This document shows positions 17,637 through 64,000 of a stretch of DNA of 64,000 nucleotides, piece by piece. The notes under the pieces are model-generated. The model was not told the DNA's origin. It searched no databases and saw nothing but the letters and a program-made list of their open reading frames with translations. Every line of letters begins with the position of its first letter. Position 1 is the first letter of the stretch. The translations under genes were made by a program, and so were the position numbers. This DNA comes from Tenacibaculum singaporense (GTDB lineage: Bacteria > Bacteroidota > Bacteroidia > Flavobacteriales > Flavobacteriaceae), in NCBI RefSeq assembly GCF_003867015.1, contig NZ_CP032548.1, forward strand, positions 2,423,001 through 2,487,000. The letters are read 5' to 3'.

Positions 17637-17642
17637 TTCTTT

Positions 17643-17819
17643 TTATGAAACACAATCAGCATGAACATCACTACAAGCCTGATATTCTGGAGGTAATGCC
17701 CAAAATTCCTCACACTGTGTTTCATCAAAAACTAAGCCACATTCGTAACCACCACCTACAATAGATTTTTGTTCTTTTCTATTTAAAAATTTTCCTGTTT
17801 TTAAAAACTCTTTTTTCAT
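17643..17819 (-). CDS. Double-glycine leader peptide, putative RiPP or bacteriocin precursor
   Basis: A 58-codon gene that I read directly from the minus strand. The N-terminal part is a leader of the kind seen in Bacteroidota natural-product precursors: MKKEFLKTGKFLNRKEQKS then IVGGG (residues 20-24), i.e. 'M-K-K-x5-G-K-x-L-x(3)-E-Q-x-x-I-x-G-G'. The rest (about 34 residues) has four cysteines (27, 36, 49, 56), a FWALPPEY centre and acidic character. Family knowledge: double-glycine leaders are cut by C39-peptidase ABC exporters. No exporter or modifying enzyme is encoded within this window. It sits 100 bases after the macroglobulin gene and 6 bases before pbpC on the same strand, so it is probably co-transcribed with pbpC. 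The alternative is a small non-RiPP protein whose leader resemblance is chance; the match seems too specific for that. Confidence 0.72.
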   Translation of the reverse strand: MKKEFLKTGKFLNRKEQKSIVGGGYECGLVFDETQCEEFWALPPEYQACSDVHADCVS

Positions 17820-17919
17820 GATACTACTAAGATTTAAAACTGTAATTAAATCCTTGAACTTTTAGAGACACTCAAGGTTTGTGTCCATTCTTCGCGAAAG
17901 AATATTGTTATTGAATTAT

Positions 17920-27264: not shown

Positions 27265-28203
27265 TTAAAAATATCTAGGAGATTTAACTCTATTTACTTT
27301 ATGCAATTCAAACATTAACAATATTTCATGTGTTCCATTTGAATACTGATTAATGTCTGATAATGGGTGCTCATAAGCGTAACCTATTCGAAACTGACGA
27401 GATACTTGAAAATCTACCAAAGCTCCTAAAGCTCCTGTATCTTTATTTATCCTGTATGAGCCTCCTAACCAAAATTTTTCATTGAATAAAAAGTTTGCTG
27501 TGATATCATATGATACCGGAGCTCCATTAGTTGCTTTTATTAATGTAGCTGGCTTAAATTTTACATTATCACTCAAATCAAAAACATATCCTCCTGTTAA
27601 GTAATAACTTACTCTGTCTACAACTCCGTAATTAATTCCATTAATTTCTAAATCATTATGGTCTATATTTAATAACCTTGGGGCAGAAAGCCCTACATAC
27701 CATTTGTTGGTATGTAGTAGCAATCCACTACCTATGTTTGGTTCCCATCTATTTTGAATTCCTGAAATTCCTGGATCTGATCCTTCGGCTGCTATCAAAG
27801 CATCATCAATATTGTATTGAGTAAACCCTGCTTTAAGTCCAAAGGCTAATTTAACGTCGTCATTAAGTTGAATGGTATATGAAAAGTCTCCATATAAATA
27901 GGTAAAGTTTTCATATCCTAATTGATCATTTATAAATGATAATCCTAATCCTATTTTATCATTTCTAAGTGGTGTGTGAATAGATAGTGTTTGTGTTTCT
28001 GGTGCTCTATCTAATCCCGCCCACTGACTTCTATGCAATCCAACAATACTCAACACTTGTCTACTTCCTGCATAGGCTGGATTAATAGAAATTGTATTGT
28101 ACATATACTGTGTGAATTGTGGTAGCTGTTGTGATTGAACTGTTAAAACTGTTGTGAAAAACAGTACAATAACTGCTTGTAATAGTTTGTAATTATGGTT
28201 CAT
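27265..28203 (-). CDS. PorP/SprF-family outer membrane protein
   Basis: A 312-residue outer membrane protein with signal peptide (VIVLFFTTVLTVQSQ). Hallmarks of PorP/SprF: QLPQFTQYMYNTISINPAYAG at the mature N-terminus, LHRSQWAGLDRAPETQ, IGLGLSFINDQLGYEN, and repeated beta strands to the C-terminus including RQFRIGYAYEHPLSDI. Family knowledge: SprF-like proteins are needed for the secretion or surface attachment of the T9SS cargo with a type B C-terminal domain encoded next to them. The gene starts 10 bases after the giant adhesin, so this is the canonical pair. Confidence 0.93.
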   Translation of the reverse strand: MNHNYKLLQAVIVLFFTTVLTVQSQQLPQFTQYMYNTISINPAYAGSRQVLSIVGLHRSQWAGLDRAPETQTLSIHTPLRNDKIGLGLSFINDQLGYENFTYLYGDFSYTIQLNDDVKLAFGLKAGFTQYNIDDALIAAEGSDPGISGIQNRWEPNIGSGLLLHTNKWYVGLSAPRLLNIDHNDLEINGINYGVVDRVSYYLTGGYVFDLSDNVKFKPATLIKATNGAPVSYDITANFLFNEKFWLGGSYRINKDTGALGALVDFQVSRQFRIGYAYEHPLSDINQYSNGTHEILLMFELHKVNRVKSPRYF

Positions 28204-49074: not shown

Positions 49075-51453
49075 TTATTCACTTAGTGTATGAAACATTT
49101 TGGCAAAAGCTATTTCAAGAAAAATAGAAACTTCCATTTTTGTTCTACCCTCTTCTAGCATTGTTAAAATAGTATTTATGTGTGTATCCTTGAATTTATA
49201 AAAGTCTCCATCTTCTTTGTACAAATCTTCCTTCTTTAAATTTTCTAACTGCTCTAGCATATACTTATTTGCTTTGTATGCTGACTTTCTTTTTTCTAAA
49301 AACAATTGCATCTTTTTACTATCTTTTCTGCTTGATTTATTATACATGGATAAAGCTGTTTTATATTTCTGCTCTACCGACCATTCTACCCTTTTAGCAT
49401 CACGGTACAACTTCTCAAGTCCTTTAAAAGCTAATTCATAATATGTATTTATATAGTCTTGATTATTATGTAAATGATTTAAATACTCAATTGCCTTTTT
49501 CTTATACTTATTTTTAGATTTTAGCTCAGCATCTTTTAACTCTTGTTCTAAAACTAAAAGTTTATCTGCTATTTTATTTACTTTTTTTATCTCCTCAAAC
49601 CTTTTTGCCTTTCCTATAATTAATACCTCTGGAGTTATTTCATTAGGCTCTCCTGTAAATGTATGTTCCTTATAAGAAAAACTAAACTCCCCTCGAACTC
49701 TCTCTACTTTTGCTTTCTTTTTTGCAGATAAGTCAAAAGCATAATTGTAACCGAAAGTAACTGTTAAGTCTTGGGTATTCTTTAAAGAAGTATTTCTAAA
49801 TAATTGAATAGCACTTAAATTAAAATTATGCTTTTCTCTATATACATAATTTGCATTCAATCTAAAGTTTGTTGCACTTGCCTTATTTGTTTTGTTATTA
49901 TTTTGATTATAAGAAGTACTCAGTGTTGTGTTTAATTTATCTTTTAGAAATTTTTTGTTAACTGCTACTGTTGGTCCCCATGTATAGGATTCATCTCTTC
50001 CAATAGTATTATAAGTAGTATTTAAAGCAGATGTTATATTAATTTTTCTTTGTGGTAATCCTAATGTATAGGAAGTATTAAAATTATGAAATGTTGAACC
50101 ATTACCTATACGTACAATTCCATTTTCAGCATTAGCTACTGTCGCTAATGAATAATTTGTATTTAGGTTTTGTCTTCTTGTTTTACTGTTTTCTAAAATA
50201 TAACTTACATTAACGTTGGCATTTTGAGATAACTGCTTATAATTAAATCGTTCTTCTTGATTATCTAACAAATTATCATCATTTATAATCTCAAACTGAT
50301 CTAGCTTATTATTTGTATAGGTAGAAAAGTTAGAATAGCTTCCTGTTATATTTACTTTTTTACTCATAGTAAATGTTGCATTAACACTTCCAACTGTTCT
50401 ACTAGTATTGGTCTCTTTTTGATTGGCTAAATCATCTCGTTGGTATCCTATATTAAACCCTAAACTTATTTTATTATTAAATAAAGTGGTATTACCATTC
50501 AGTGTAATATTTTCAAAATCATTATTAAAATAATAAGCTCCTAATGTTTGATATCCTGGGTCTATACGCTCATAGCCTACTCCAAATCTATATTTATCAA
50601 AGCTATATTCCATTTCTGTTTTAAATGCTTTGTAATGTTCTGTTGAAGCTCTATTGTTGAATAATAAACCTGCTACTCCGTTACTATGACTTACTTTTTC
50701 TGCTCTAAGATCTTGTGTAATAGCCGTTGAAGCGTACTCTCCTTTAAAACGAAGTCCATCTATTACAGTTACAGTTCCTGACATGCTTAGCACCAGGTTT
50801 TCTTTTGGTAACACCTTTTTTTCTTCTGGTACTGCACTTATTGAGTTTATCTTGTCTTTTGCATAAAAACCAATTAATTCTAAGCTATATTTTTCTTTTT
50901 TAAACCCTACTTTAGCTCCATATCCCATTCGTTTAAAAGCAGGTTGTGTTCTGTTGTCATCTGAATCTTCAGTAGCTTTTAATAATCGACCATACATTGC
51001 TGAAAAAGTAAAACTTCCTTTAGGAGTTAAATCAACTCCACCTCCAGTAAATTGGTGTCCTGCCAACGTATATGGAGAAAAACTCATACTTACATCTCCA
51101 ATATGGGCTTGTATCCATCTATATTTAGGGTGCAGACTCAAACGATTAAAACTAAATGGTAATTGATATTCTAAATCGCCTCCTTGATTAGAAAAGCTAT
51201 AGCTTACAGGAATTGAAAATTCATAAATATTAAAATTTAAGCTTCCTTGTAAAAAATAGGTAAATGGTGCTCTTGCACTATTTTGATTGGATGAATAAAA
51301 CACAGAGTTAGCAGCGATATTTCCGCTAACTTTAAATGGTTTTCCTCTTCCTATATTCTCAAAATCTAATTGTTGTCCTACTATACTTTCAGCAAAAAAT
51401 ATGCTTAAAATAAACACTACTACTTTTAGTGTTTGCCCCCTCATTGTAATCAT
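49075..51453 (-). CDS. Outer membrane beta-barrel protein with helical C-terminal tail
   Basis: A 792-residue protein with signal peptide (VVVFILSIFFAESIVGQQ). Residues about 25-610 show a regular alternation of amphipathic beta strands as in large outer membrane barrels: RFGVGYERIDPGYQTLGAYY, LNGNTTLFNNKISLGFNIGY, LNTTLSTSYNQNNNK. Residues about 620-792 are a charged helical, coiled-coil region (KVNKIADKLLVLEQELKDAE). This combination of barrel plus helices is unusual and could span the outer membrane into the periplasm. It is the last gene of the minus-strand exoprotein operon, 19 bases after the paralog gene. Possible role: pore or anchor for the surface complex (inference). Confidence 0.78.
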   Translation of the reverse strand: MITMRGQTLKVVVFILSIFFAESIVGQQLDFENIGRGKPFKVSGNIAANSVFYSSNQNSARAPFTYFLQGSLNFNIYEFSIPVSYSFSNQGGDLEYQLPFSFNRLSLHPKYRWIQAHIGDVSMSFSPYTLAGHQFTGGGVDLTPKGSFTFSAMYGRLLKATEDSDDNRTQPAFKRMGYGAKVGFKKEKYSLELIGFYAKDKINSISAVPEEKKVLPKENLVLSMSGTVTVIDGLRFKGEYASTAITQDLRAEKVSHSNGVAGLLFNNRASTEHYKAFKTEMEYSFDKYRFGVGYERIDPGYQTLGAYYFNNDFENITLNGNTTLFNNKISLGFNIGYQRDDLANQKETNTSRTVGSVNATFTMSKKVNITGSYSNFSTYTNNKLDQFEIINDDNLLDNQEERFNYKQLSQNANVNVSYILENSKTRRQNLNTNYSLATVANAENGIVRIGNGSTFHNFNTSYTLGLPQRKINITSALNTTYNTIGRDESYTWGPTVAVNKKFLKDKLNTTLSTSYNQNNNKTNKASATNFRLNANYVYREKHNFNLSAIQLFRNTSLKNTQDLTVTFGYNYAFDLSAKKKAKVERVRGEFSFSYKEHTFTGEPNEITPEVLIIGKAKRFEEIKKVNKIADKLLVLEQELKDAELKSKNKYKKKAIEYLNHLHNNQDYINTYYELAFKGLEKLYRDAKRVEWSVEQKYKTALSMYNKSSRKDSKKMQLFLEKRKSAYKANKYMLEQLENLKKEDLYKEDGDFYKFKDTHINTILTMLEEGRTKMEVSIFLEIAFAKMFHTLSE

Positions 51454-51472
51454 TAAAATATTCTTTTCTTTT

Positions 51473-52921
51473 TTATAACTGTTTTGCTAAACACTTTTTT
51501 GAGTCTCTAACTTTTACGCTGTATGCCCCTTTATTTAACTTATTTATTCTTGTTGTCTGTGCATTGGTAAACGGAAACCAAGTTTCGTCCTCCACATTAC
51601 TACCGGTATAGTCTACCCAACTGGTACCATTAAAAAACTGTATGACCCCATCCTTTGTTAATTGATATAAAAAAGTTCTACTACTTTCTCCTGTAGCACT
51701 AATATCTATATAGCCATCATTTACCTTGAAACAATTTTGATCTGCTGATCCTGTTACTTGGAAATCAACGGGCCTTGCAGGAGTAATCGTGAATGAATCA
51801 GAAAACTCAAGGCTTTTCCAAGTATCATCTGCCTCATCTATTCCTCCGGTACCTGTATGTGTTTGATATTTTACTCTATAGCTTCCAGCATCTAAAGGCT
51901 TATTCCATGTATAGCTATAGACTCCCGAATTATTGGTTAAAGTTGATGTATATTCTTGATCATAGATTAAACTATCATCAGTTCCATCGTACAAAGTCAT
52001 TACCAATTCTTCTGAGTTTAAATTTCTATTAAAATTTAAAGTAAAACCTCCATCTGCCTTATAATTACAACTTGAGCTTTGAGTTTTAACACTATCTAAT
52101 GTTGGAGACGGTCTCAATATATCTAATATTATAATCGACGATTCCACCGTAGGAGTTGTATGAGTATATGGAGTGGGCCAAATGGTAGAAGTGAGAGTAA
52201 CTACAGGAGGTATAAAAACCCTTTTTATTTTAATATTTTTTATTGTGTTAATATCAATCCAAACTTCATCTTTTAAAACTTCATCTATAGTAGCTTTCAT
52301 AGGAAAAATATTTTTAATTTCTTCTGGAAAATCTTTAAACCCGAAGTCTTTATCTGTTTGATATTGCCATTTTACATATGGAATTTTAGCTTCAGGAATA
52401 TTAAAATTATTTACCGAAGATGTAAATATTTTATCACTCAATACTCTTTCTCTATCTAAACCTTCTGGTTGTACATATTTAGGTAAGATAACAGCTGATT
52501 GATGTAACAATCTATCTTCATTATGTATATTGGTTGTCTTAAGTGGATAACAATAATCAAGAGTTACAACATTACCTACTCTACCTATAAATATCATTTG
52601 CATTTTTTGGAAGATAAAACTTCCTTCTTCTGAACATGCAGCTCCACAACCTGGAACCCCATCTTTAGATAATTTATAATTTCCTGAAATATTACTTTTA
52701 TTAGAGGATAAAGTATAAATACCTGTATCAAATATTTTTTTATTGGGATATAAAACACTATTTACATCATTATAATGAATAAAAAAATGCTGTCTTGTTA
52801 CGCAAAAGCTATAATCATATACATTAGTAAAGCTCCCATCACCAGATACCCAAAGTTCATACTCTTGCCCAAACCCTAAAAAACTACACAAAAATAGTAG
52901 TATAAATAATCTCTTTTTCAT
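51473..52921 (-). CDS. Secreted protein with SprB-like C-terminal repeat, paralog A
   Basis: A 482-residue protein with signal peptide (LFILLFLCSFLGFG). The first about 250 residues are unknown beta-rich material with several cysteines (DGVPGCGAACSEEG). Residues about 270-380 contain an Ig-like domain (CNYKADGGFTLNFNRNLNSEEL). The last about 100 residues hold a SprB-repeat-like segment, 'ADQNCFKVNDGYIDISATGE ... TFLYQLTKDGVIQFFNGTSWVxYxGS', ending KCLAKQL. That tail is almost identical to the next upstream gene's. No T9SS sorting domain, so display of this protein must rely on partners. Twelve bases separate it from the paralog. Confidence 0.78.
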   Translation of the reverse strand: MKKRLFILLFLCSFLGFGQEYELWVSGDGSFTNVYDYSFCVTRQHFFIHYNDVNSVLYPNKKIFDTGIYTLSSNKSNISGNYKLSKDGVPGCGAACSEEGSFIFQKMQMIFIGRVGNVVTLDYCYPLKTTNIHNEDRLLHQSAVILPKYVQPEGLDRERVLSDKIFTSSVNNFNIPEAKIPYVKWQYQTDKDFGFKDFPEEIKNIFPMKATIDEVLKDEVWIDINTIKNIKIKRVFIPPVVTLTSTIWPTPYTHTTPTVESSIIILDILRPSPTLDSVKTQSSSCNYKADGGFTLNFNRNLNSEELVMTLYDGTDDSLIYDQEYTSTLTNNSGVYSYTWNKPLDAGSYRVKYQTHTGTGGIDEADDTWKSLEFSDSFTITPARPVDFQVTGSADQNCFKVNDGYIDISATGESSRTFLYQLTKDGVIQFFNGTSWVDYTGSNVEDETWFPFTNAQTTRINKLNKGAYSVKVRDSKKCLAKQL

Positions 52922-52933
52922 TTTTTCTCTTCC

Positions 52934-54313
52934 TTACTGTTTAGCTAAACATTTTTGTGAGTCTCTAACTTTTACGCTGTATGCTCCTTTATTTAAATTA
53001 CTTATTCTTGTTTTCTTTGCATTGGTAAACGTAAACCATGTTTCATTATCAATATCACTCCCTTCATATTTTACCCAACTAGTACCATTAAAAAACTGTA
53101 TGACTCCATCCTTTGTTAATTGATATAAAAAAGTTCTACCATCTTCTCCAGTGGCGCTAATATCTATATAGCCATCATTCACCTTAAAGCAGTTTTGGTC
53201 TGCAGAACCTGTTACTTGAAAACCAACTTTCGAAGGTTTACCTATTATGAATTCATCTGAAGGAACTATACTTGCCCAGGATCCATCCGTTGGGTTAATT
53301 CCTCCACTACCTTTTAAGGTTTGGTATTTTAACTGATATTTACCTGGTGCCAAATCTTTACTCCACAAATAACCAAAACTACCATCTGACATGGCTTGCA
53401 AATTCGTAATTTCTCTTTGTGGGTTCGTAGCCAAATCATACCCTGTAGTATACTCGTAATATAAAGTAGCAATTAACTTCTCATTAGCTACCAAATCTCT
53501 ATCAACACTAAACGCAAAACTACCATCTTCACTATAATTACAGCTTGTTGTAATTGAAGTAGGTTGTTGTACTAGCTCGGGTGAGCAAGGAATAATATTA
53601 TAAATTATAATGTTTGAATCCGATTCTATCCATTCAAATAACCCTGTAGTGATACTAACAATACCTTTAAAATATAAAGGACCTTCATATGATTGAGGTA
53701 TATTTATATCTTTTAAATCTAATATAACGCTATTACCACTAGTTGTAGATGTTGATAAAAAAGTTGGTTTATAGTTAATATTATCCAAACTATAATACCA
53801 AGAAATCGTCTGTTGTGGTATACAGCTATTAGAAGTTAAAGTTATACTCTCTTTTCTACAAAAAGTATTATTCGTAGAAACTTTCAATACATTATTGTTT
53901 GAAACCCTAACCGTTGTGCATGTTACTGATGGTTGGCCAAAAAGTCCTCCTGTTTTATTAACCTCACAATCTCCACTTCCAATAGTTATGTCATTATCAC
54001 AACGTGTACTACTTCCAGAAACACTCCATGAAGTTATAACTCGCGTTGGTCTTTGATCAAATACTTCATATGCAATATTTCCATCGAACACTTCTAAACC
54101 TGTAGTAGGAATAACTCTAGTTAAAATACCACTATCTTTTAATAAGGTATTACCATTGTACACTCTATAACGATATGTTTCAGTTTTTCCATTAAAAAAT
54201 AATCCCCCTGTAAACCCTGAACCAGGCCTTACAAATTGAAATGTATATTTTTTTTGAGCTTTTACACTCAAACTTACTATTAATAGAAGTACTAACAATA
54301 ATTTCTTTTTCAT
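52934..54313 (-). CDS. Secreted protein with SprB-like C-terminal repeat, paralog B
   Basis: A 459-residue protein with signal peptide (LLLVLLLIVSLSVKAQ). The N-terminal about 130 residues are unknown, with GSGFTGGLFFNGKTETYRYR at the start; a Cys-rich middle (SGSSTRCDNDITIGSGDCE) precedes an Ig-like domain homologous to paralog A (CNYSEDGSFAFSVDRDLVANE). The C-terminal about 100 residues are nearly identical to paralog A up to the end KCLAKQ. N-termini are very different, so after duplication the tail was conserved or homogenised, and the head diversified. No sorting domain. Confidence 0.78.
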   Translation of the reverse strand: MKKKLLLVLLLIVSLSVKAQKKYTFQFVRPGSGFTGGLFFNGKTETYRYRVYNGNTLLKDSGILTRVIPTTGLEVFDGNIAYEVFDQRPTRVITSWSVSGSSTRCDNDITIGSGDCEVNKTGGLFGQPSVTCTTVRVSNNNVLKVSTNNTFCRKESITLTSNSCIPQQTISWYYSLDNINYKPTFLSTSTTSGNSVILDLKDINIPQSYEGPLYFKGIVSITTGLFEWIESDSNIIIYNIIPCSPELVQQPTSITTSCNYSEDGSFAFSVDRDLVANEKLIATLYYEYTTGYDLATNPQREITNLQAMSDGSFGYLWSKDLAPGKYQLKYQTLKGSGGINPTDGSWASIVPSDEFIIGKPSKVGFQVTGSADQNCFKVNDGYIDISATGEDGRTFLYQLTKDGVIQFFNGTSWVKYEGSDIDNETWFTFTNAKKTRISNLNKGAYSVKVRDSQKCLAKQ

Positions 54314-54327
54314 TTTACTTATAGTAG

Positions 54328-55542
54328 TTACTCATCTAAGTATTTAGCTAATGAAGATCTATTCTCCTTTATAACTAGTGCCAGTTTATCTAAATTCAAT
54401 ACTTTATTCTTATCTAAAACCTCTCTTTTTAATTCAATAAGTTTGTTGTTTTCATATAAGTCATAAAGTAATTGTGGCTTAATATTTTCAAATAAACTTA
54501 CCCAGTTAGTAAACCTATCATTAATCTCAACATAACCATTACTATCTTTCTTATATAGAATGGCTTTATTAATATTATTTCTACTATACTTAATTATACT
54601 GTATGTATTGTTATTATCTTCAAATGTAAATTTTGAAATTAATGTTGTAATTTCTTTGTCTATCAAATTAAACTCTGGTTTTCTTTCATACTTTTTCTTT
54701 GTTTTCTCATTAGAAACCAATTTATTATCATTTAGTAAATATTCTGAAAAAAAAGATTTCTCTAATATAAAATCTTGTTCTGTTTTAATTTTAAAAACTT
54801 CTGGTGTTTGCCTCAGTTTCGCTTTTGGATAATTATATCCCTCAACAATAAGTCGCTTATCTTTTACTTTATATAAACTTTCTGTCTTCTTAACTTTATA
54901 CCATCCTCTATAAATATTCGCTAGCTTTTCAAAATCTAATCCTTTATTTTTCCCTCTTGTTTTTTTTATTAAACCTTTTATGAAGTCATCTTCGGACTTT
55001 CCTTTTAATAACTCTAGCAAAATAGCAGGCTCAAAATTGGAAAAAATACTTATCATGTATTCTTGATTCAATAAATCACTTATGTACCATCTATCTTTAA
55101 CTTTTTCTATGGAAATTACCCCTATAATAGGAAATGGTATCTTCTCCATAATAAATGAGTATTTTAGAAAAGCCATATTCCTTCCATTATAATTATACTC
55201 ATATACTGTTTCTATTTGTATATAATTTTTGGATGTATCATTTTTTTTAACCGCTTCAAAGTGTTCTTTATCTCTAACTATTTTAGTTCTTCCATCTAAA
55301 TATTCACTTAATGCCCATTTTCTATTAGAAGCCGAAAAAAAAGACTGTATTAAACCTTCATAAGTAGAATAATCAATTTCTTTTTGAGAAGCTACTTGGT
55401 TTATACGCAAAGGTGTTTCGTATATTTTATAAGTAGCTATTACTTCTTTTGAAAAACGAATAGCTATACCTTCTCCTTTTTTAAATTGCGAATAACTAAT
55501 TGTTACTATAGTTAATAATAAAGATGTTATTAATTTTCTCAT
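54328..55542 (-). CDS. Exported protein of unknown function
   Basis: A 404-residue protein with signal peptide (LITSLLLTIVTISYSQ). Two similar segments, ILLELLKGKSEDDFIKGL with FEKLANIYRGW (about 195-235) and LLYDLYENNKLIELKREVL with LDKLALVIKENR (about 363-395), suggest an internal duplication of a unit of about 170-190 residues. Each unit holds a beta-rich part (IQIETVYEYNYNGRNMAFLKYSF; VEGYNYPKAKLRQTPEVFKIK is the corresponding region). No known domain was recognised. It is operon member between the two-TM protein and paralog B. Confidence 0.7.
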   Translation of the reverse strand: MRKLITSLLLTIVTISYSQFKKGEGIAIRFSKEVIATYKIYETPLRINQVASQKEIDYSTYEGLIQSFFSASNRKWALSEYLDGRTKIVRDKEHFEAVKKNDTSKNYIQIETVYEYNYNGRNMAFLKYSFIMEKIPFPIIGVISIEKVKDRWYISDLLNQEYMISIFSNFEPAILLELLKGKSEDDFIKGLIKKTRGKNKGLDFEKLANIYRGWYKVKKTESLYKVKDKRLIVEGYNYPKAKLRQTPEVFKIKTEQDFILEKSFFSEYLLNDNKLVSNEKTKKKYERKPEFNLIDKEITTLISKFTFEDNNNTYSIIKYSRNNINKAILYKKDSNGYVEINDRFTNWVSLFENIKPQLLYDLYENNKLIELKREVLDKNKVLNLDKLALVIKENRSSLAKYLDE

Positions 55543-55553
55543 TATTTTATTTT

Positions 55554-56003
55554 TTATTTTTTATTTTTTTCTAATATTTTCAATCCTATATAATAAAGAA
55601 GTGATGGTATAAACAATATAATTAATGTAAGATTAAACCATACTCCTCCAAGAACTATAGATGGAGATTTCTCATTCTTTTTTCTTTTTAATATAAAGTT
55701 TCTACCTTCTTGATTACAATACCAAACCAAATAATTACCATTTTTATCTTTATCTAAAGAAGGCATATAACCTGTTATTGTTTTCTTTATTTTGTTTCTT
55801 TTTAAATATCCTTCAATATGATACAAGTCTGTAGGTTCTCCATCTACATTAAAATATTTTTCAACAATCAATACATCTTTTATAAAACAAGATTGTTCAA
55901 AATTTACAACATAAAATAATTTTATTTGATAAAAATCATTAACAATGGCAGACAATACAGCAAAAAAACCTAGTATGCTTAAAAATAAACTTAGACCTTT
56001 CAT
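55554..56003 (-). CDS. Small two-TM membrane protein
   Basis: A 149-residue protein with an N-terminal membrane segment (LFLSILGFFAVLSAIVNDFY) and a C-terminal one (VLGGVWFNLTLIILFIPSLLYYIGLKIL) enclosing a soluble domain of about 90 residues with two cysteines. The layout resembles DUF3592-type proteins (membrane helix, small beta domain, membrane helix), but I do not claim membership. It is the only inner membrane protein of the exoprotein operon, with a 1-base gap to the TANFOR protein gene. Confidence 0.72.
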   Translation of the reverse strand: MKGLSLFLSILGFFAVLSAIVNDFYQIKLFYVVNFEQSCFIKDVLIVEKYFNVDGEPTDLYHIEGYLKRNKIKKTITGYMPSLDKDKNGNYLVWYCNQEGRNFILKRKKNEKSPSIVLGGVWFNLTLIILFIPSLLYYIGLKILEKNKK

Positions 56004-56004
56004 C

Positions 56005-59000
56005 TTATTCTTTATATAAATCTATTGGATCAATTAACTGAATTCTTTCATAATAAGGTGAAGTTTCTAATTTTTTACCTAAAAAAACTAGATAAGCACC
56101 TGCATTTAAATCTAAATATACTCCCTTTCTTAGTGGAAAGACTCCAAAATTTCCATTAGTATAACCTATACTTAAAAGTTCAGCTCCTGCTATACCGCTT
56201 GCATAACCACTAATAGCAAACCAATCATTATTTTTTAATAAACTAAACTCTCCTTTTGCTCCAAAAGCAACGTTTAAACCTATTATTGCGGGATCTATTG
56301 ATTTTTTATACTCAATCCACTTATCACTCTCTACATACTTTCTCTCTTCACTAACTACTTTCACCTCACCAAAAGCATCGGCACTAGCCTCAATTTTTAC
56401 TTCAGCAGTAATATATTCTTTCGCCTTTTTTATTGCCCAATCAGGTATAGGCAACTCATCTATGGGTAATCCCCATTTCCATACAGTAACCTTACCTTTT
56501 AAACCTACTTTAAATCCTCCTTTGGTTTTCTTTTCTCTATAATATAAACGAGACTCAATATCTTCTTTATTCTCAGCAATACTTTCAAAAGGAACAATTT
56601 CATAAAACCAATTAATACCTACTGGACTTGATGTTGGTGTAGTTTTAATAAAAGAAAGACTTTCTAATTTTTTTCCATACTTTTCAATCAATTTTGTAGC
56701 TTCAAAAGCTTTTTTTATTGTTTTTGAACCAAAGTTTTCATTCCCTAAACTAAACTTCCATTTTTGAAAATCTTTATTTACCCATTTAACGGTTACACTT
56801 TTATCTATTTTATTTGAAACTCCTCCGTTCACAGTTGTTGTAGTAGTTTCTGTATCTTCATACAACCATTTAAATGTGGTTTTCTTTCCTTGATGTTCAG
56901 TCTCTAAATTATCATTGAAATACCATTTAATATCACTTTTAGAAATAATATCTTCATTTAAATTTGGTGATATTTTTATTCCATAGTCTATTATTTTAGA
57001 ATCTTTTGTGATGGAAGGTTCGTTAATCAAATAAAGAATTTGTCCTGATTTTGCAGCTCTTTTTTTATTTTCATCTTCTTTAGCAACCAATTCCAAAAAC
57101 TCAAATTCTTTAACTATTCTTTTAATTGTTACCTTTATTTTTTCTTCATTATAGTTAGAAACTATGTCTAACACATGAATATCTTTCATGTTAATACCCA
57201 AATTATCGTGGGTAGTTTCATTTGTTGCAAAATCAGAAGTGTTATCAGTCCCTAACTTTAATACTTGCCAATTAATTTTTGCTTCTTTAGGGTAATTTTT
57301 TAGTAAAAAAGCAAAATTTGTTTGCTCTCTTGAATAAGGAACCTCTATTGTATCTCCATTCTTATAACTTTTCCCGTTATGCTCTATTACTACATTTTCA
57401 CTTTCATTATTTGAAGAATTATTAGTAGTATTTGCATCACTTTCTGTATTGTTAGTTGTATCTGTACCACTACTTGTTCCTGTACTTGTATTGTCTCCTT
57501 GATTCGTTGTATCAGTATTAGTAGTATCCGTCGTATCAGAATTATTTGTGTCTGATGTTGAATTATTATCAGTACCTGAATTTCCTGTTGTTGAGCTTTC
57601 TCCTGTAGTAGTATCACTAGCTGTATCTGAATTATCTTCTACTGGTTCGTCTTCTGCAAAAATGTCATCTACAAGATCACTTATATCCTCAATAACTTCA
57701 TCAGCATCTATAATTCCTCCCCATTCAGGATCGTAATCAGTCTCTACTACTCCATCAATAAGCTCATAACTACTATTTACTTGAACATTGTCAAATACTA
57801 CTTTAATACGTGTGTATTTCCCTATATTAATATCTCCACCAGATGCTATATTGGCTGCATCAATAATTTCTTTCAGGTTTTCTAAAAATGGTAGGGTAAT
57901 ATATCCCCAACCACTAAACGTTCCATTACTTCCACTTACCTCACGTGTAGTTACTGGGAAATCACCTGCTGTAAAAGTTTCGTTTATTCCTAATTTTGGT
58001 AGTGGTTCTTTGTTTGTAATGTTTATTTGCGGAGTTAATCCACAGTTGTAATACGCAGCTTCATCGTTACTTGGCGTGGTAAACTCTTGAATATTTGAAT
58101 ACGCAAACCCTGATAACTGAGTACACTCACCTCCTACACGAAATTCATATATGGTAGCTGCTTCTAAATTTCGAATTTTACTCTCATTGGTATAACTATT
58201 TACTTCAAACCAATCATCATCTCCAAATCCTTTTTTACGATACTGAATTCTATAGCGTAAATGTTCTGAACTTTGCCAATTTACTTGAACTGATTCTGCT
58301 GTTAACGCTTGCGAAATAACAAAGCTTGGTGGTTTACAATCTTCTAAATATTTAAACCAAAAAATCTCACTTTTTCCGTCATTTTTAAACACAGAGGTTT
58401 CATTTACTCCATCACTTACAAAAGCACGTACCTGCCAACCGTATATTTTACCTGAAAGTAACTGTGGTGCTTCTGGTCCTACTAATAGTGTTGTAGTATA
58501 GGTGTTTGTTTGATAAAAAGGAACTGATGCTAAAAAGTTAGCTTGCGGATTTTGTAGATCCCACAATTCTTTTAATGTAAATTCATATTGTACGTTACTT
58601 ACATTACTATGGCGAGGTGTCCAAGTAAATAATATGTTTTGTGGATTGGTAGCATTTACAATATTATCTTTAAATGGTAAATTTAAAATTGGTGGATCAT
58701 TTTGTAATAAGTATACGGTAGTACAACTTTTAGATGATAGTTTTCTGTTGGTAAAATAGTCGTACACTTCAAAACAAAAATCATATCCTCCATTTGGTAA
58801 AGGTGCATTGTACTGTTGTGGTGTAATTCCAACCAAATTATCTAACTGAAAGTATGGTTGTAAGTCTAAATTAGACAGTCTTAGGTTTATCCCTCCATCA
58901 ACATATATAGGAGTTTCTCCAATAATTACATCACGCGAGGTTATAGAAAGCCCTTGTCCTTCTATATACATTTTTAACCGTATTCTACGACCAACTTCAT

Positions 59001-59202
59001 TTACATCGGTTAATAAAATATTGATATACAGTTTTTCACTCGACGTTGTAGCATAGTCTGATATTTTTAAACTATACGGTGGTATTAATTGTGGAGTTAC
59101 TTGAACTGGATACGTTTGTGAGTATAGTACTGTACTTATAAATACAGTAAACAACAACATTACCTTTTTGAATATATTACTATCGTTTGAATTGATTTTC
59201 AT
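56005..59202 (-). CDS. TANFOR and fibronectin type III domain exoprotein
   Basis: A 1065-residue protein with signal peptide (VMLLFTVFISTVLYSQ, residues 13-28). Residues about 30-285 fit the TANFOR domain (YPVQVTPQLIPPYSLKISDY, DVNEVGRRIRLKMYIEGQ, GLPNGGYDFCFEVYDYFTN-like). A Fn3 domain follows (about 290-380: ESVQVNWQSSEHLRYRIQYR). A conserved region to about 515 precedes a low-complexity Ser/Thr/Asn/Asp linker (about 517-605; DNA about 57390-57655). The rest (605-1065) is a beta-rich unknown part ending in hydrophobic SIGYTNGNFGVFPLRKG and DLNAGAYLVFLGKKLE, which could be a small barrel-like or surface domain. No T9SS sorting domain. It follows the PKD lipoprotein by 10 bases. Confidence 0.85.
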   Translation of the reverse strand: MKINSNDSNIFKKVMLLFTVFISTVLYSQTYPVQVTPQLIPPYSLKISDYATTSSEKLYINILLTDVNEVGRRIRLKMYIEGQGLSITSRDVIIGETPIYVDGGINLRLSNLDLQPYFQLDNLVGITPQQYNAPLPNGGYDFCFEVYDYFTNRKLSSKSCTTVYLLQNDPPILNLPFKDNIVNATNPQNILFTWTPRHSNVSNVQYEFTLKELWDLQNPQANFLASVPFYQTNTYTTTLLVGPEAPQLLSGKIYGWQVRAFVSDGVNETSVFKNDGKSEIFWFKYLEDCKPPSFVISQALTAESVQVNWQSSEHLRYRIQYRKKGFGDDDWFEVNSYTNESKIRNLEAATIYEFRVGGECTQLSGFAYSNIQEFTTPSNDEAAYYNCGLTPQINITNKEPLPKLGINETFTAGDFPVTTREVSGSNGTFSGWGYITLPFLENLKEIIDAANIASGGDINIGKYTRIKVVFDNVQVNSSYELIDGVVETDYDPEWGGIIDADEVIEDISDLVDDIFAEDEPVEDNSDTASDTTTGESSTTGNSGTDNNSTSDTNNSDTTDTTNTDTTNQGDNTSTGTSSGTDTTNNTESDANTTNNSSNNESENVVIEHNGKSYKNGDTIEVPYSREQTNFAFLLKNYPKEAKINWQVLKLGTDNTSDFATNETTHDNLGINMKDIHVLDIVSNYNEEKIKVTIKRIVKEFEFLELVAKEDENKKRAAKSGQILYLINEPSITKDSKIIDYGIKISPNLNEDIISKSDIKWYFNDNLETEHQGKKTTFKWLYEDTETTTTTVNGGVSNKIDKSVTVKWVNKDFQKWKFSLGNENFGSKTIKKAFEATKLIEKYGKKLESLSFIKTTPTSSPVGINWFYEIVPFESIAENKEDIESRLYYREKKTKGGFKVGLKGKVTVWKWGLPIDELPIPDWAIKKAKEYITAEVKIEASADAFGEVKVVSEERKYVESDKWIEYKKSIDPAIIGLNVAFGAKGEFSLLKNNDWFAISGYASGIAGAELLSIGYTNGNFGVFPLRKGVYLDLNAGAYLVFLGKKLETSPYYERIQLIDPIDLYKE

Positions 59203-59212
59203 ATACTTTTTC

Positions 59213-60565
59213 TTATTTAGCTTCTTTTTGAACTTTTATATCAACTACTATGTATGAGTTTGTACCGTCTTTCACAAACTGCTTTATTTTTATAACTCCT
59301 TTTCGACTATCTGAAGTTTTAAAAGGAATGATTCTTGGCGTTACTGTATTATCAAATTCTTTTAACCCTTCATTGATTTCATCTACCGCCAAGGCTGCTA
59401 ATAACTGATCGTTTACCATTGCATCAAACTCTGAAACAGACAAATGAGTACTACAATTACACGATTCTTGCTTGTTTATTAATTGAGTCTTTTGAGCATT
59501 AGGAATCGATGAAAAAGCAACTGTTGATGCTTGATTTGGGCTCACAAATTTGTTATATGAAAAGGTTTCGCTTAAACCAAAGAAAACAAGATCTATATCC
59601 TTTCCTGTCTCATTAGTAACTTCACTCTTCGTATATACTTTTCTTGTTTTGGTTGAAAAAAAAGCTCCAATAGCATTCTCTTTATGAGCTGTGTTAATTC
59701 CTAATTTTACATTTTCTAAACTTCTTAAGTTGGTATTTTCATATACAGTTATTGTTTTTGAAAATACTTTCTCTTGTTTTCCATTACTTGCTTTTAGCTG
59801 TAATGTATGAGTTCCTGGTGTTTGAATTTCTATTTCTGGATTTTCTTCTAAGCTACTTGTTATATTAGCGCCTTCAAACGTCCAATTGTAATTAGTTGCA
59901 CTGATACTTTTATTAGTTAATGTAACTTTTACTGGAACTTGATAATCATCGTCTTTAAAAGCAACTGAATATTCAAAATCGGCTGTTAGATAAGGTGCAA
60001 CTTCTATTATTTTTTCTTGAGTATAACTTTCCTCTCCATTACTTACTTTTAATCTTATCGTATGCTCTCCCGGAGTTGTAAAAGTTATGTTTTCTGGGTA
60101 TTCTTTTGATGATGTCTCTGGTATTCCCCCTTGAAAAAACCACTCAAAGGTTGTAGCCCCTTTTGTTTTATTAGTTATTTTTACTTCAACTGGTGAGTAA
60201 TTATTTTCTAATACCTCTACATCAAAATCAATAAGAACAGTTGGCTTTACTGTAATTTTTTGAGTTTTTACGTCTACACTACCATCTCTATTAGAGGCTT
60301 CTAAGGTGATAAGATATTCTCCTTCTGTATTATAGGTTATAATACCAGGATTTTTACTTGACGAACTACTAGGCTCACCTCCTTTAAATGTCCATTTATA
60401 GGTATCAGCTCCTTCTGTATCATTGAGGATTTTTACTTTTACAGGCACAGTATAATCTTGATTAACTATTTCTGTATTAAAGTCAACAATTACAGGTAAG
60501 GCTACTTCATTTACACAAGCACATATACCTAATAGCGTTATTATAAAAAATAAACTCTTTCTCAT
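59213..60565 (-). CDS. Triple PKD-domain lipoprotein
   Basis: A 450-residue lipoprotein: signal FFIITLLGICAC with lipid Cys near residue 17. Three PKD domains cover about 25-275, each with the core 'ADTYKWTFKGGEPSSSS', 'ATTFEWFFQGGIPETSS' and 'ATNYNWTFEGANITSSL' and the strand 'GEHTIRLKVSNGEE'. The C-terminal about 170 residues form an unknown domain (KLGINTAHKENAIGAFFST; NKQESCNCSTHLSVSEFD). The gene's ATG overlaps the stop of the upstream SprB-repeat gene by one base (TAATG). PKD domains bind proteins or polysaccharides; as a lipoprotein it may hold the giant protein at the outer membrane (inference). Confidence 0.85.
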   Translation of the reverse strand: MRKSLFFIITLLGICACVNEVALPVIVDFNTEIVNQDYTVPVKVKILNDTEGADTYKWTFKGGEPSSSSSKNPGIITYNTEGEYLITLEASNRDGSVDVKTQKITVKPTVLIDFDVEVLENNYSPVEVKITNKTKGATTFEWFFQGGIPETSSKEYPENITFTTPGEHTIRLKVSNGEESYTQEKIIEVAPYLTADFEYSVAFKDDDYQVPVKVTLTNKSISATNYNWTFEGANITSSLEENPEIEIQTPGTHTLQLKASNGKQEKVFSKTITVYENTNLRSLENVKLGINTAHKENAIGAFFSTKTRKVYTKSEVTNETGKDIDLVFFGLSETFSYNKFVSPNQASTVAFSSIPNAQKTQLINKQESCNCSTHLSVSEFDAMVNDQLLAALAVDEINEGLKEFDNTVTPRIIPFKTSDSRKGVIKIKQFVKDGTNSYIVVDIKVQKEAK

Positions 60566-63500
60566 TACTCAACAATTACTTTTTGTATTCTTTTTGCTTT
60601 TGGAGTTTCTAATAGTAATACATATACCCCTGCTGATACATTCATATCATACAATACTTCATATTTTTTTTGTCCTTTTAGCAATTTGTCGGCTACTACA
60701 GAGTTTGCTCCTAAACTAAAAAGACGTAAAGAAATTTCTGATTCCTTTTCTAGTTCTACATCAACAGTAAACTTTCCTTTATTAGGGTTTGAATAGACTA
60801 CAAACTCTTTTACAAATGGATTCTTCGTTTCTCCAATATCTGTAAGATCTCTTGCCTTTAAAACATTCACTGTTTTGGTTGCTACTTTTTTACAATTTCC
60901 TTCATTTGAAATTAGAGATATATCGTAATTTCCTGGAGCAGGAAAACGTAAAACTAGACCTTCATCCGTTTTTTGGACTATTGTTACATTTGAAGGTATA
61001 TTCCACTCTACCTTTTCACTTATTGGATTAGACACGTTAATTAGTACTATATCTTCTCCTACAAATGCTTGAGAGGTTAAAATTAATTGTGCATCTATCT
61101 CTACATTTGACTTATGTATTATAATTTCTTTTGAGACTTTACAACCATCTTTAGTAGTAATTGTTAATGTATAAATCCCTTCTTCTGACAATAACACTAC
61201 ACTTTCATTGCTTGTAAAACCATTTGTTGAAGTCCATTCATATTCAGATGTTCCAACCATAGTTACATCATACTCTATAGTTTCACCATAACAAAGGGTT
61301 ACTTCACTTGGAACAACATCAAATATTAACTCTTCTGCATTTTTAACTAAAATTTCTTTTGTTGCTTGACAACCCTTTTGGTCAGTAACTGTAACTATGT
61401 ACGTTCCTGCGCATAATCCAGTTACATTACTTCCTTTTTGTCCAGTATTCCATGTCACACTATATGGAGCAATACCTCCTTCAATATTTAAGTCTATTTC
61501 TCCTGTACAACTGTTATAACAAATAACATCTTTTACAGTTTCTGTAATTGTTAATGAGCTTGCTTTTTCTACTGTAAAACTGCCTGTAGTTTGACAATCA
61601 TTTGCATCTGTAACTAAAACGAAATAACTTCCTGCTGCTACATCAGTAATTTCTGCTGTTGTTTGTCCAGAACTCCATGAATAAGAATATGGTGATGTTC
61701 CTCCTTCAACATTTAAACTTATTACTCCGTCATTATTACCAGAACAAGTTACGTTTGACACATCACCTGCAACTTCTAGTACCTCAGGCTGTACTACTGT
61801 GAAAACTTCACTAGTATCTTCAATTCCTTTTAAATCGGTTACTTTTACAAAATATCTTCCTGTAGGTAAATTATAAATAACTTGAGAGTTTCCGACACTA
61901 TTTCCTGTTACAGCATTAAACCATACATAACTATTTCCTCCAACACCACCTGTTGCTACCGCTTTTAATACTGCCGATATGTCTCCATTACATTTTATCG
62001 TTTCTACTTGTTCAATTGCAACTATTAATGGATCTGGTTCATCTAAATTATAAACTTCATTTAACTCACAGCCCTTGGCATCTACTACTGTTAAATAATA
62101 CTTTCCTGTAGGTACATTATTTATTGATGTAGTATTACTTATACTATTAGTTGCTTGATCTTTCCATTCATATGTAAACGGTGTTACGCCTCCTTCAATC
62201 TGAACTGATATACTTCCATCTGATAAACCTGCTCCTGAAGGTTCTTCAAAAGTTGTTACTAATACCCTATATACATCTGGTTGCGTTATGCTTATTGTTT
62301 CTTTTAACTCACATCCATTTTCATCTTTTACAGCTACTGTATACACTCCTTCTGTTAATGTATTTACATCTTCTGTTTTATCTCCATTGCTCCATTCGTA
62401 AGTATATACTCCTGTACCTCCTGTAACAGAAATATCAATGCTTCCATCATTACCATTGTAACAGGTTACTTCTGTTTTTGTAAAAGTGATTACAAGGGGT
62501 GGATTTTCTGTTAACTCTTGTTCTTTGTAAGTTGTATTTCCGTTAGAGTCGGTGACTACCAATCTATACGTTCCTGCTAAAGCTGTTAAAGAAGCTTCTG
62601 TACCTATAACTTTTGTTAAATCACTACTATTATACCATTGATAATTATAGTCTTCACCTGATAATACATATCCTCCAATTACTGTTGAACCAATCGTTCC
62701 TGTTCCTCCGTGACAAGCTATTGGCTTTGTAATTGCTAAGTTTAGCTCTAATTTGTTAGGTTGAATAAGTGTAAATTCTTTTTCTACTGAACAGTTATTA
62801 GCATCAAGAATGGCCATGACATAAGTAGCTGCGTCCAGCCCTGTTGGATTGCTTAGATTACTGATAACTGTTGTATTTCCTTTTACTCTTAATTCATAGG
62901 CATAAGGTGCAGTTCCTCCTGATGCTTCTTCAATATTAATTTCTCCGTTTGCCGTTTCAAAACCAGTTAAGTTTTTTTGAGAATCTGTAACTATCGTTAA
63001 AGGTGCAGTTGGTTGATTTATTATAATTATTCTTTCAATTGGCGGATTTGGACAGTTATTGGTATCTGTAATTACTACTTTATACTCTCCAGCACTAAGA
63101 TTTAATATGCCTTTTTCTGTTCCTATTACAGTACTATTTCCAACTTTATACCATTTATAAATATAAGTATCTGTACCTCCAATTACATCAACATCTATAT
63201 TTCCTGTTGAATCTCCATAACAAGCAACGTGATTTACAATAACATTACTAATTTCAACTTTAGTTGGATTTACTACCGTTCCTTCACTATACGACTTTAT
63301 ACCATTACTATCTGTTATTTCTACACCATAATCTCCTGCAGGCAAACTTCCAATAGTATTATTAGTAGCGCCGGAAATAAATACTTTTCCTCCACTACTA
63401 CCTACTTCATACCAATGATATGTATAAGGAGAAATTCCTCCCGTAACAGCAACTTCCAATTTACCATCAGTATCTCCATTACAATACAACTCTCCATCAT

Positions 63501-64000
63501 CTGGAATGTTTATAGTTCCTATAAGCTTATCAGGCTGTGTAAGTGTTTGATATAGCTCATCAGTACATCCTTTAGCATCTGTTACTACTACTCTATAATT
63601 ACCATCTCCAATATTTGAAATGTTTTGTAAAGTTCCTACAACACTTCCTGCTTCATTAAACCATTGATAAGAGTACGGTAAAGTTCCTCCTGATGTAGAA
63701 ATATTGATACTTCCATCCTCACTTCCAAAAGCTAATGGCTCTTGATGACTTACATAAGAAACACTCAAACTTTCTGAAGGTTCAGTTATAGCATATGTTT
63801 TTTCTAAAGTACAGTCATTTGCATCCGTTACAGTTACCGTATATGAACCAATTGATAATCCTGACAAATCTCTTGTAATTGCTCCGTTTGACCAGTGATA
63901 TTGGTAACCTTGTGTTCCTGGCGTTCCTCCTTCAATTATTAGAGTTATTGCCCCGTCATTCCCTCCTTTACAAGATACGTCTTGTATTGTTTCTGTAACT
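60565..64000 (-). CDS. SprB-repeat giant protein with T9SS type A sorting domain (5' end outside window)
   Basis: The frame is open to the right window edge, so the start lies outside. At least eleven SprB-type repeats of about 75-85 residues are visible, each with the core 'C-x-G-x-x-D-G-x-I-x-(3-5)-G-G-x-x-P-Y-x-Y-x-W' and ending in a 'V-x-V-T-D-x-x-G-C' strand, for example CYNGNDGSIDISVTGGTG and CSGNNDGVISLNVEGGTS. A final non-repeat part (about residues 880-1000 of the visible portion) includes an Ig-like domain. The C-terminus is a T9SS type A sorting domain: VVYSNPNKGKFTVDVELE, SLGANSVVADKLL, and basic AKRIQKVIVE. Related to gliding adhesin SprB in its repeats but lacking the type B end. 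First visible gene of the operon. Confidence 0.9.
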   Translation of the reverse strand, partial: VTETIQDVSCKGGNDGAITLIIEGGTPGTQGYQYHWSNGAITRDLSGLSIGSYTVTVTDANDCTLEKTYAITEPSESLSVSYVSHQEPLAFGSEDGSINISTSGGTLPYSYQWFNEAGSVVGTLQNISNIGDGNYRVVVTDAKGCTDELYQTLTQPDKLIGTINIPDDGELYCNGDTDGKLEVAVTGGISPYTYHWYEVGSSGGKVFISGATNNTIGSLPAGDYGVEITDSNGIKSYSEGTVVNPTKVEISNVIVNHVACYGDSTGNIDVDVIGGTDTYIYKWYKVGNSTVIGTEKGILNLSAGEYKVVITDTNNCPNPPIERIIIINQPTAPLTIVTDSQKNLTGFETANGEINIEEASGGTAPYAYELRVKGNTTVISNLSNPTGLDAATYVMAILDANNCSVEKEFTLIQPNKLELNLAITKPIACHGGTGTIGSTVIGGYVLSGEDYNYQWYNSSDLTKVIGTEASLTALAGTYRLVVTDSNGNTTYKEQELTENPPLVITFTKTEVTCYNGNDGSIDISVTGGTGVYTYEWSNGDKTEDVNTLTEGVYTVAVKDENGCELKETISITQPDVYRVLVTTFEEPSGAGLSDGSISVQIEGGVTPFTYEWKDQATNSISNTTSINNVPTGKYYLTVVDAKGCELNEVYNLDEPDPLIVAIEQVETIKCNGDISAVLKAVATGGVGGNSYVWFNAVTGNSVGNSQVIYNLPTGRYFVKVTDLKGIEDTSEVFTVVQPEVLEVAGDVSNVTCSGNNDGVISLNVEGGTSPYSYSWSSGQTTAEITDVAAGSYFVLVTDANDCQTTGSFTVEKASSLTITETVKDVICYNSCTGEIDLNIEGGIAPYSVTWNTGQKGSNVTGLCAGTYIVTVTDQKGCQATKEILVKNAEELIFDVVPSEVTLCYGETIEYDVTMVGTSEYEWTSTNGFTSNESVVLLSEEGIYTLTITTKDGCKVSKEIIIHKSNVEIDAQLILTSQAFVGEDIVLINVSNPISEKVEWNIPSNVTIVQKTDEGLVLRFPAPGNYDISLISNEGNCKKVATKTVNVLKARDLTDIGETKNPFVKEFVVYSNPNKGKFTVDVELEKESEISLRLFSLGANSVVADKLLKGQKKYEVLYDMNVSAGVYVLLLETPKAKRIQKVIVE

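Follow-up and report, generated by a model that had tools for sequence, protein, structure and literature searches.

A candidate TANFOR polymorphic-toxin operon with a conserved barrel, g01 and g02 core in Tenacibaculum singaporense

What do eight tightly packed genes encode at the end of a 64 000-nucleotide stretch of the Tenacibaculum singaporense chromosome (the window; NCBI RefSeq assembly GCF_003867015.1, contig NZ_CP032548.1, G000:C1:2423001-2487000), where a protein with SprB repeats lies among other exported proteins? A sequence-only reading had proposed one surface or envelope assembly, built from a cargo of the type IX secretion system (T9SS), an anchor lipoprotein, an outer-membrane barrel and minor subunits. 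Our analysis assigns a probability of about 70 % to the answer that these genes make up the last two-thirds of a TANFOR polymorphic-toxin operon of 12 genes on the Tenacibaculum chromosome.

The operon lies on the minus strand at G000:C1:2472075-2498051, reads from 2498051 down to 2472075, and comprises genes g01 to g12 (Table 1) with all 11 intergenic gaps between -19 and +19 bases. The eight genes already described, with gaps of -1, 10, 1, 11, 14, 12 and 19, matched our coordinates and all seven gaps exactly, but eight was too small an extent: gene calls across the window edge place the 5' end 11 kb beyond it, with g01-g04 wholly upstream of the window. Family searches recovered the SprB repeats and Por_Secre_tail of g05, the three PKD stretches of g06 and the Fn3/TANFOR assignment of g07. 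The signal peptides reported for the exported products were evident as N-terminal hydrophobic, Sec-like stretches by inspection or hydropathy, lipobox-like cysteines were present in g06 and in its homologues, and g08 displayed the two transmembrane-like segments ascribed to it. The SprB protein had been called giant, which its full gene of 1656 amino acids does not bear out, and the duplication proposed within g09 is doubtful (33 % over 45 amino acids, E 5e-4). The source organism stands close to Tenacibaculum discolor, whose g01 is 96 % identical.

TANFOR gene g07 and its exchangeable C-terminus

TANFOR proteins were proposed as polymorphic toxins of Bacteroidetes by Jana, Salomon and Bosis in 2020 (PMC7073777). 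That paper describes BaCT, one TANFOR C-terminal type, as tested for DNase activity with an immunity protein encoded downstream, reports that SprB, Por_Secre_tail, Fn3 and PKD domains are over-represented around TANFOR genes, and leaves the exit route of the toxins open, with the T9SS as a hypothesis. The earlier statement that no named system has such a composition was only partly true: TANFOR loci with SprB, PKD and Fn3 neighbours had already been published. The toxin class is already known, and the present locus is an extension of it with a core module added.

The N-terminal TANFOR domain of g07 matched TIGR02542 with an E value of 5.5e-5 and 23 bits against a curated cut-off of 67. Among 385 sampled Bacteroidota genomes this model gave matches in nine and none over the cut-off; TIGR02542 by itself is a poor detector, although the longer N-terminal module (N-module) of g07 finds more, and TIGR02542 was therefore not used for counts. 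The start of the protein (MKINSN..VMLLFTVFISTVLYSQ) is hydrophobic and, by hydropathy only, Sec-signal-like. In relatives of g07 the first ~515 residues are conserved and the C-termini are mostly unrelated, with the rare C-terminal type of g07 also present in genome G056.

Comparison with close relatives showed how this C-terminus behaves. T. discolor and T. larymnensis keep it at 95 and 92 % identity, respectively, together with g08 (52 and 81 %) and g09 (95 and 99 %). T. gallaicum retains the TANFOR N-module (92 % identical), the PKD lipoprotein (87 %) and the barrel (93 %), yet its TANFOR protein of 2158 amino acids carries an unrelated C-terminus and other small genes occupy the place of g08 and g09, all between flanks that are 87-93 % identical. 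Relatives of g09 also come after a g07-type C-terminus in G056 and G177a, and orphan relatives of g08 and g09 occur in G001. At sequence level the g07 C-terminus, g08 and g09 are exchanged together, as would be expected of a toxin-immunity cassette, and genetic linkage with the C-terminus type makes g08 and g09 candidate immunity genes.

The genome holds the system a second time (G000, C1:1863551-1886000; L032, L067). There the C-terminal end of the TANFOR protein is a DNA/RNA non-specific endonuclease domain (4.6e-17), and the gene order is another one, namely barrel, TANFOR-endonuclease, a 238-amino-acid gene, g01, g02 and SprB protein. In two other Tenacibaculum loci a TNT-domain gene or a NADAR gene follows the TANFOR gene. 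Taken with the cassette, these features give g07 the layout and signature of a TANFOR polymorphic toxin, from which we infer toxicity. It shares with the proteins in the consulted parts of PMC7073777 an N-terminal TANFOR domain with Fn3, a Sec signal, a polymorphic C-terminus, a downstream immunity-like gene, nearby genes for SprB with a C-terminal sorting domain (CTD), PKD and Fn3, and a T9SS in the genome, and differs in that its C-terminus belongs to no described toxin family. Those same sections make no mention of the barrel, g01, g02, the paralogs with variable heads, TANFOR-g01 fusions or a fixed locus plan, and the conserved core of barrel, g01 and g02 looks new; a literature search beyond that paper, whose reach did not extend to subscription papers and preprints, found nothing on this system.

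Some small genes around the TANFOR gene were also observed. The toxin-to-barrel interval of T. gallaicum (L251) holds, inside the swapped cassette, a NADAR-domain gene (1.4e-43) that may confer immunity to an ADP-ribosylating toxin, as well as a 191-amino-acid open reading frame (ORF) that by eye resembles a REP-type transposase. Similar ORFs of 119-120 amino acids lie between the PKD lipoprotein and TANFOR genes at L034:8514-8873 (G021 locus) and in L256 (G204 locus), and by eye recall the four-helix-bundle proteins known from 23S rRNA insertions.

The barrel, g01 and g02 core

Co-occurrence was examined across the family in 199 genomes, close to one for each genus. The barrel (g12), g01 and g02 were each present in 19, with pairwise overlaps of 18, and every one of the 16 genomes with a strong TANFOR N-module had all three (16/16). 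Fisher p-values for co-occurrence ranged from 2e-23 to 6e-21 and overstate the significance owing to kinship among the genomes. The genes are also physically linked: for 45 of 47 longer barrel copies a TANFOR gene was found on the same strand within 20 kb, lying less than 700 bases after the barrel in 23 cases and several kilobases off in 22. Around g01 in public genomes (80 loci drawn from Flavobacteriaceae, Chitinophaga, Ohtaekwangia and Apibacter) g02 was detected in 76, the remaining loci ending early, and the usual gene order was g01, g02, paralogs, SprB protein, PKD lipoprotein and TANFOR. Barrel and TANFOR were both present in the g01-locus genomes searched whole (14/14), and the gene set stays together under two different gene orders. 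The conserved synteny expected of the proposed assembly was thus borne out in many genera for the barrel, g01, g02 and TANFOR, which are a co-occurring, linked set in the genomes compared, and this supports one functional system. Barrel homologues were found in 68 of the 385 sampled Bacteroidota genomes.

A further tie comes from gene fusion. In 12 more distant genomes, first noticed in a protein of G073, the TANFOR N-module and g01 form a single polypeptide of ~1500-2500 amino acids, and the fusion gene adjoins g02; every stretch read except one has a barrel match there as well. Many of the distant-genome barrels are ~550-600 amino acids long, without a helical tail of the g12 type. The fusions are good evidence, at sequence level, for TANFOR and g01 as parts of a single assembly. 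They imply that TANFOR is probably a docking module that attaches toxins to the barrel/g01/g02 core, and since TANFOR is covalently part of g01 in distant Bacteroidota, the docking module on the toxins is probably that of an older envelope system.

Searches of Pfam, NCBIfam and PADLOC placed none of g01, g08, g09 and g12 in a family, weak sub-cut-off matches being discounted, and PDB sequence searches gave no useful relatives for g01, the barrel or the g07 C-terminus. The AlphaFold2 model of g12, built on an alignment of eight rows (the window's own proteins and related loci), has ~25 strands across residues 41-575 with helices after them, at a mean predicted local distance difference test score (pLDDT) of 65. 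Its best folds were the FimD/PapC ushers (Z 15-17, top 17.2; root-mean-square deviation (rmsd) 3.7-6.0 over ~350-400 residues at 10-13 % identity), with MtrB (Z 16.3) and porins (Z 14-15) near those scores. The model thus suggests that g12 is a large outer-membrane barrel, and we claim no usher ancestry. Chaperone-usher pili resemble the system in the size and shape of the modelled barrel and in having a number of small proteins that pair a variable head with a conserved C-terminal module; they differ in that g12 has no usher family match in Pfam and no chaperone was recognised, and the likeness may reflect just a large barrel. The model of g01, built from 36 sequences on residues 60-1255 of the T. 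discolor protein, consists almost wholly of beta structure with long strands (pLDDT 74, predicted template modelling score (pTM) 0.41), and a fold search returned LptD, porins and ApoB, mostly at rmsd ~10-35 Å. Given this high rmsd and the pTM of 0.41, we conclude only that g01 is a large all-beta protein, possibly barrel- or sheet-like.

Several atypical loci deserve mention. An in-frame merger of PKD lipoprotein and barrel (L189:20818-23016) and, in the G023 locus (L058), a PKD and barrel pair without TANFOR, g01 or g02 are probable decay products. A 1373-amino-acid ORF, Cas9-like by its N-terminus (L063/L082; G016:C112, ~17443-21564), sits a few kilobases downstream of a locus copy with g01, g02, SprB, PKD and barrel genes and no TANFOR beside it.

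The displayed cargo and variable heads

The earlier observation that only the first visible gene bears a sorting domain was upheld: g05 alone among the operon products has a T9SS CTD above cut-off and qualifies as a type A cargo (TIGR04183, 4e-14), and the T9SS component SprA was found in the genome. In related loci a CTD-like domain ends 41 of 42 complete SprB-type proteins, the exception being masked, whereas all 11 complete TANFOR proteins and all 70 complete short paralogs lack one; g07 itself gave no match to a T9SS sorting domain in Pfam or NCBIfam.

The sharing of a C-terminal tail between two paralogs had been recognised correctly, but their number is four, two being beyond the window. 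Genes g03, g04, g10 and g11 have ~230 C-terminal residues in common (g03/g04 52 % and g10/g11 57 % identical), and recognition of a SprB module in g03 (4.2e-7) shows that this tail contains a SprB-type module. Most of the stalk of g05 is ~85-95 % identical in close Tenacibaculum relatives (g01 90-96 %), whilst parts of its first 300-400 residues are far less alike, with head identities of 31-57 % and lowest values of 31-38 %. The C-terminal modules of the paralogs are likewise conserved; the heads frequently give poor alignments or none, and loci differ in how many paralogs they have. Such head variability in g05 and the paralogs is a pattern of receptor-binding tips, as judged from alignment.

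SprB/SprF gliding adhesin loci (PMC9143113), in which type B T9SS cargo is paired with PorP/SprF anchors, resemble the operon in their SprB repeats and T9SS-exported surface adhesin. The g05 CTD is instead of type A, and the partner barrel g12 is larger (~25 strands) and lies outside the PorP/SprF family: TIGR03519 was found at 10 places in the genome, none of them at g12, which has no NCBIfam match. One of those ten is a minus-strand gene at window positions 27307-28173, and its presence suggests that the window contains a further T9SS cargo locus.

Table 1. Genes of the operon and features within them, with positions counted from the first base of the window
Feature	Window position	Strand	Properties and basis
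g01	upstream of window	-	1574 amino acids; all-beta, without Pfam family
g02	upstream of window	-	698 amino acids; weak Fn3
g03, g04	upstream of window	-	450/448 amino acids; SprB-tail paralogs
g05 SprB-repeat T9SS cargo	60565..64000 (3' part; start at extrapolated position 65535)	-	1656 amino acids; SprB 4.3e-81; N-terminal head, beyond the window, hypervariable
Type A T9SS sorting domain (CTD) of g05	60571..60798	-	TIGR04183 4e-14 (above cut-off); Por_Secre_tail 1.7e-10
g06 triple-PKD lipoprotein, candidate surface anchor	59213..60565	-	PKD 1.1e-20, 3 stretches; homologues in many loci
g07 TANFOR-class polymorphic toxin candidate	56005..59202	-	1065 amino acids; TIGR02542 5.5e-5, below cut-off
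g07 N-module (TANFOR and Fn3, residues 1-515), proposed docking module	57658..59202	-	Conserved in relatives
g07 variable C-terminal region, putative toxin	56008..57657	-	Swapped in T. gallaicum; rare type also in G056
g08 candidate immunity	55554..56003	-	149 amino acids; two transmembrane-like segments
g09 exported protein, candidate periplasmic immunity	54328..55542	-	404 amino acids; goes with related C-termini
g10 putative adhesin, SprB-tail paralog with variable head	52934..54313	-	~230-residue common C-terminal module; N-terminal half unmatched in relatives
g11 putative adhesin, SprB-tail paralog with variable head	51473..52921	-	Same basis as g10
g12 outer-membrane barrel with helical tail	49075..51453	-	792 amino acids; co-occurrence and linkage with TANFOR
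Barrel domain of g12 (residues 41-575, ~25 strands)	49729..51333	-	AlphaFold2 model, mean pLDDT 65
Helical tail of g12 (residues 603-791)	49081..49647	-	Missing from many distant homologues

Proposed delivery and competing explanations

From the composition, synteny, fusion, cassette swap, head variability and CTD distribution observed here, a scheme can be proposed in which docking, exposure, contact delivery, toxicity and immunity are all conditional. Sec would carry all products to the periplasm, from where the T9SS would display g05 as a fibre; its variable head and the paralogs would together recognise the target, and lipoprotein g06 and barrel g12 would hold the surface parts. By its TANFOR module the toxin would dock at the outer membrane onto the complex of barrel, g01 and g02 and be exposed on or through it, and target contact through the variable heads would lead to delivery of the C-terminal domain. 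The producer would be protected by g08 in the inner membrane and by g09, with its signal-peptide-like start, in the periplasm; these placements suggest a toxin acting in the envelope. The arrangement recalls contact-dependent inhibition (CdiA/CdiB) and other polymorphic toxins, which likewise combine a swappable C-terminal toxin and immunity gene with a conserved delivery part, an outer-membrane partner barrel and a variable receptor-binding region. Here, by contrast, toxin and fibre are separate proteins, the fibre is assigned to the T9SS, and family searches recognised no two-partner-secretion or POTRA-type family in g12.

A more speculative possibility is that barrel, g01 and g02 constitute an undescribed outer-membrane module of Bacteroidota. 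It would recognise TANFOR domains and expose or translocate the cargo that bears them by a way independent of the T9SS channel. An older three-gene system, with a TANFOR-g01 protein among its own components, would then have been taken up at a later time for toxin delivery, alongside a targeting fibre exported by the T9SS.

Several results weigh against the toxin operon and its proposed export. Several genomes have the three-gene module without a SprB cargo or separate TANFOR toxins, so that toxin export is not a necessary role of the core. The lack of a CTD in TANFOR proteins leaves their export route putative, and a channel function of g12 is likewise putative, given the pLDDT of 65 and the pTM of 0.41 for g01. 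In addition, g07 matches TIGR02542 under its curated cut-off, its C-terminus gave no recognised toxin domain in Pfam, NCBIfam or PDB sequence searches, and family and sequence searches recognised no immunity family in g08 or g09.

That TANFOR toxins are exported by the T9SS alone, as Jana et al. hypothesised, hitch-hiking on the SprB protein whilst barrel, g01 and g02 serve only as fibre anchors, is possible and would suit the single CTD-bearing cargo of nearly every locus, the T9SS in the genome and the enrichment reported in the consulted part of PMC7073777. It sits less easily with TANFOR proteins that have no CTD, and with the fusion and linkage that tie TANFOR to g01 and the barrel even where no SprB gene was seen nearby. 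A non-toxic surface assembly, adhesive or gliding-related, with g07 as a variable structural subunit, comes near the earlier proposal and is unlikely: the adhesin-like SprB, PKD and Fn3 domains, the want of a recognised toxin domain in g07 and the three-gene modules elsewhere speak for it, and against these stand the complete swap of the g07 C-terminus with its downstream genes between flanks 87-93 % identical, the nuclease C-terminus in the second copy, the TNT and NADAR genes of relatives, and the toxicity tested, according to the same part of PMC7073777, for another member of the class. Co-transfer of unrelated exported genes as one genomic island is very improbable, for all the patchy distribution (~10 % of sampled genera) and the accessory genes between conserved ones, given a set kept together in two gene orders, near-perfect co-occurrence and the TANFOR-g01 fusion. 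Chance clustering was rejected on the grounds of co-occurrence and fusion.

The one-assembly proposal is thus supported in outline, lipoprotein and outer-membrane barrel being plausible parts of it, but four further genes lie upstream of the window, and it overlooked the toxin signature of g07, the toxin being probably what the system exists for. Concrete candidates for the parts by which TANFOR toxins leave the cell come from the set of conserved genes, from the fusions of TANFOR with g01 and from the large barrel. These also point to a broader envelope module of Bacteroidota centred on g01, a protein without a Pfam family. With the hypervariable heads of the fibre, target specificity would become open to testing.

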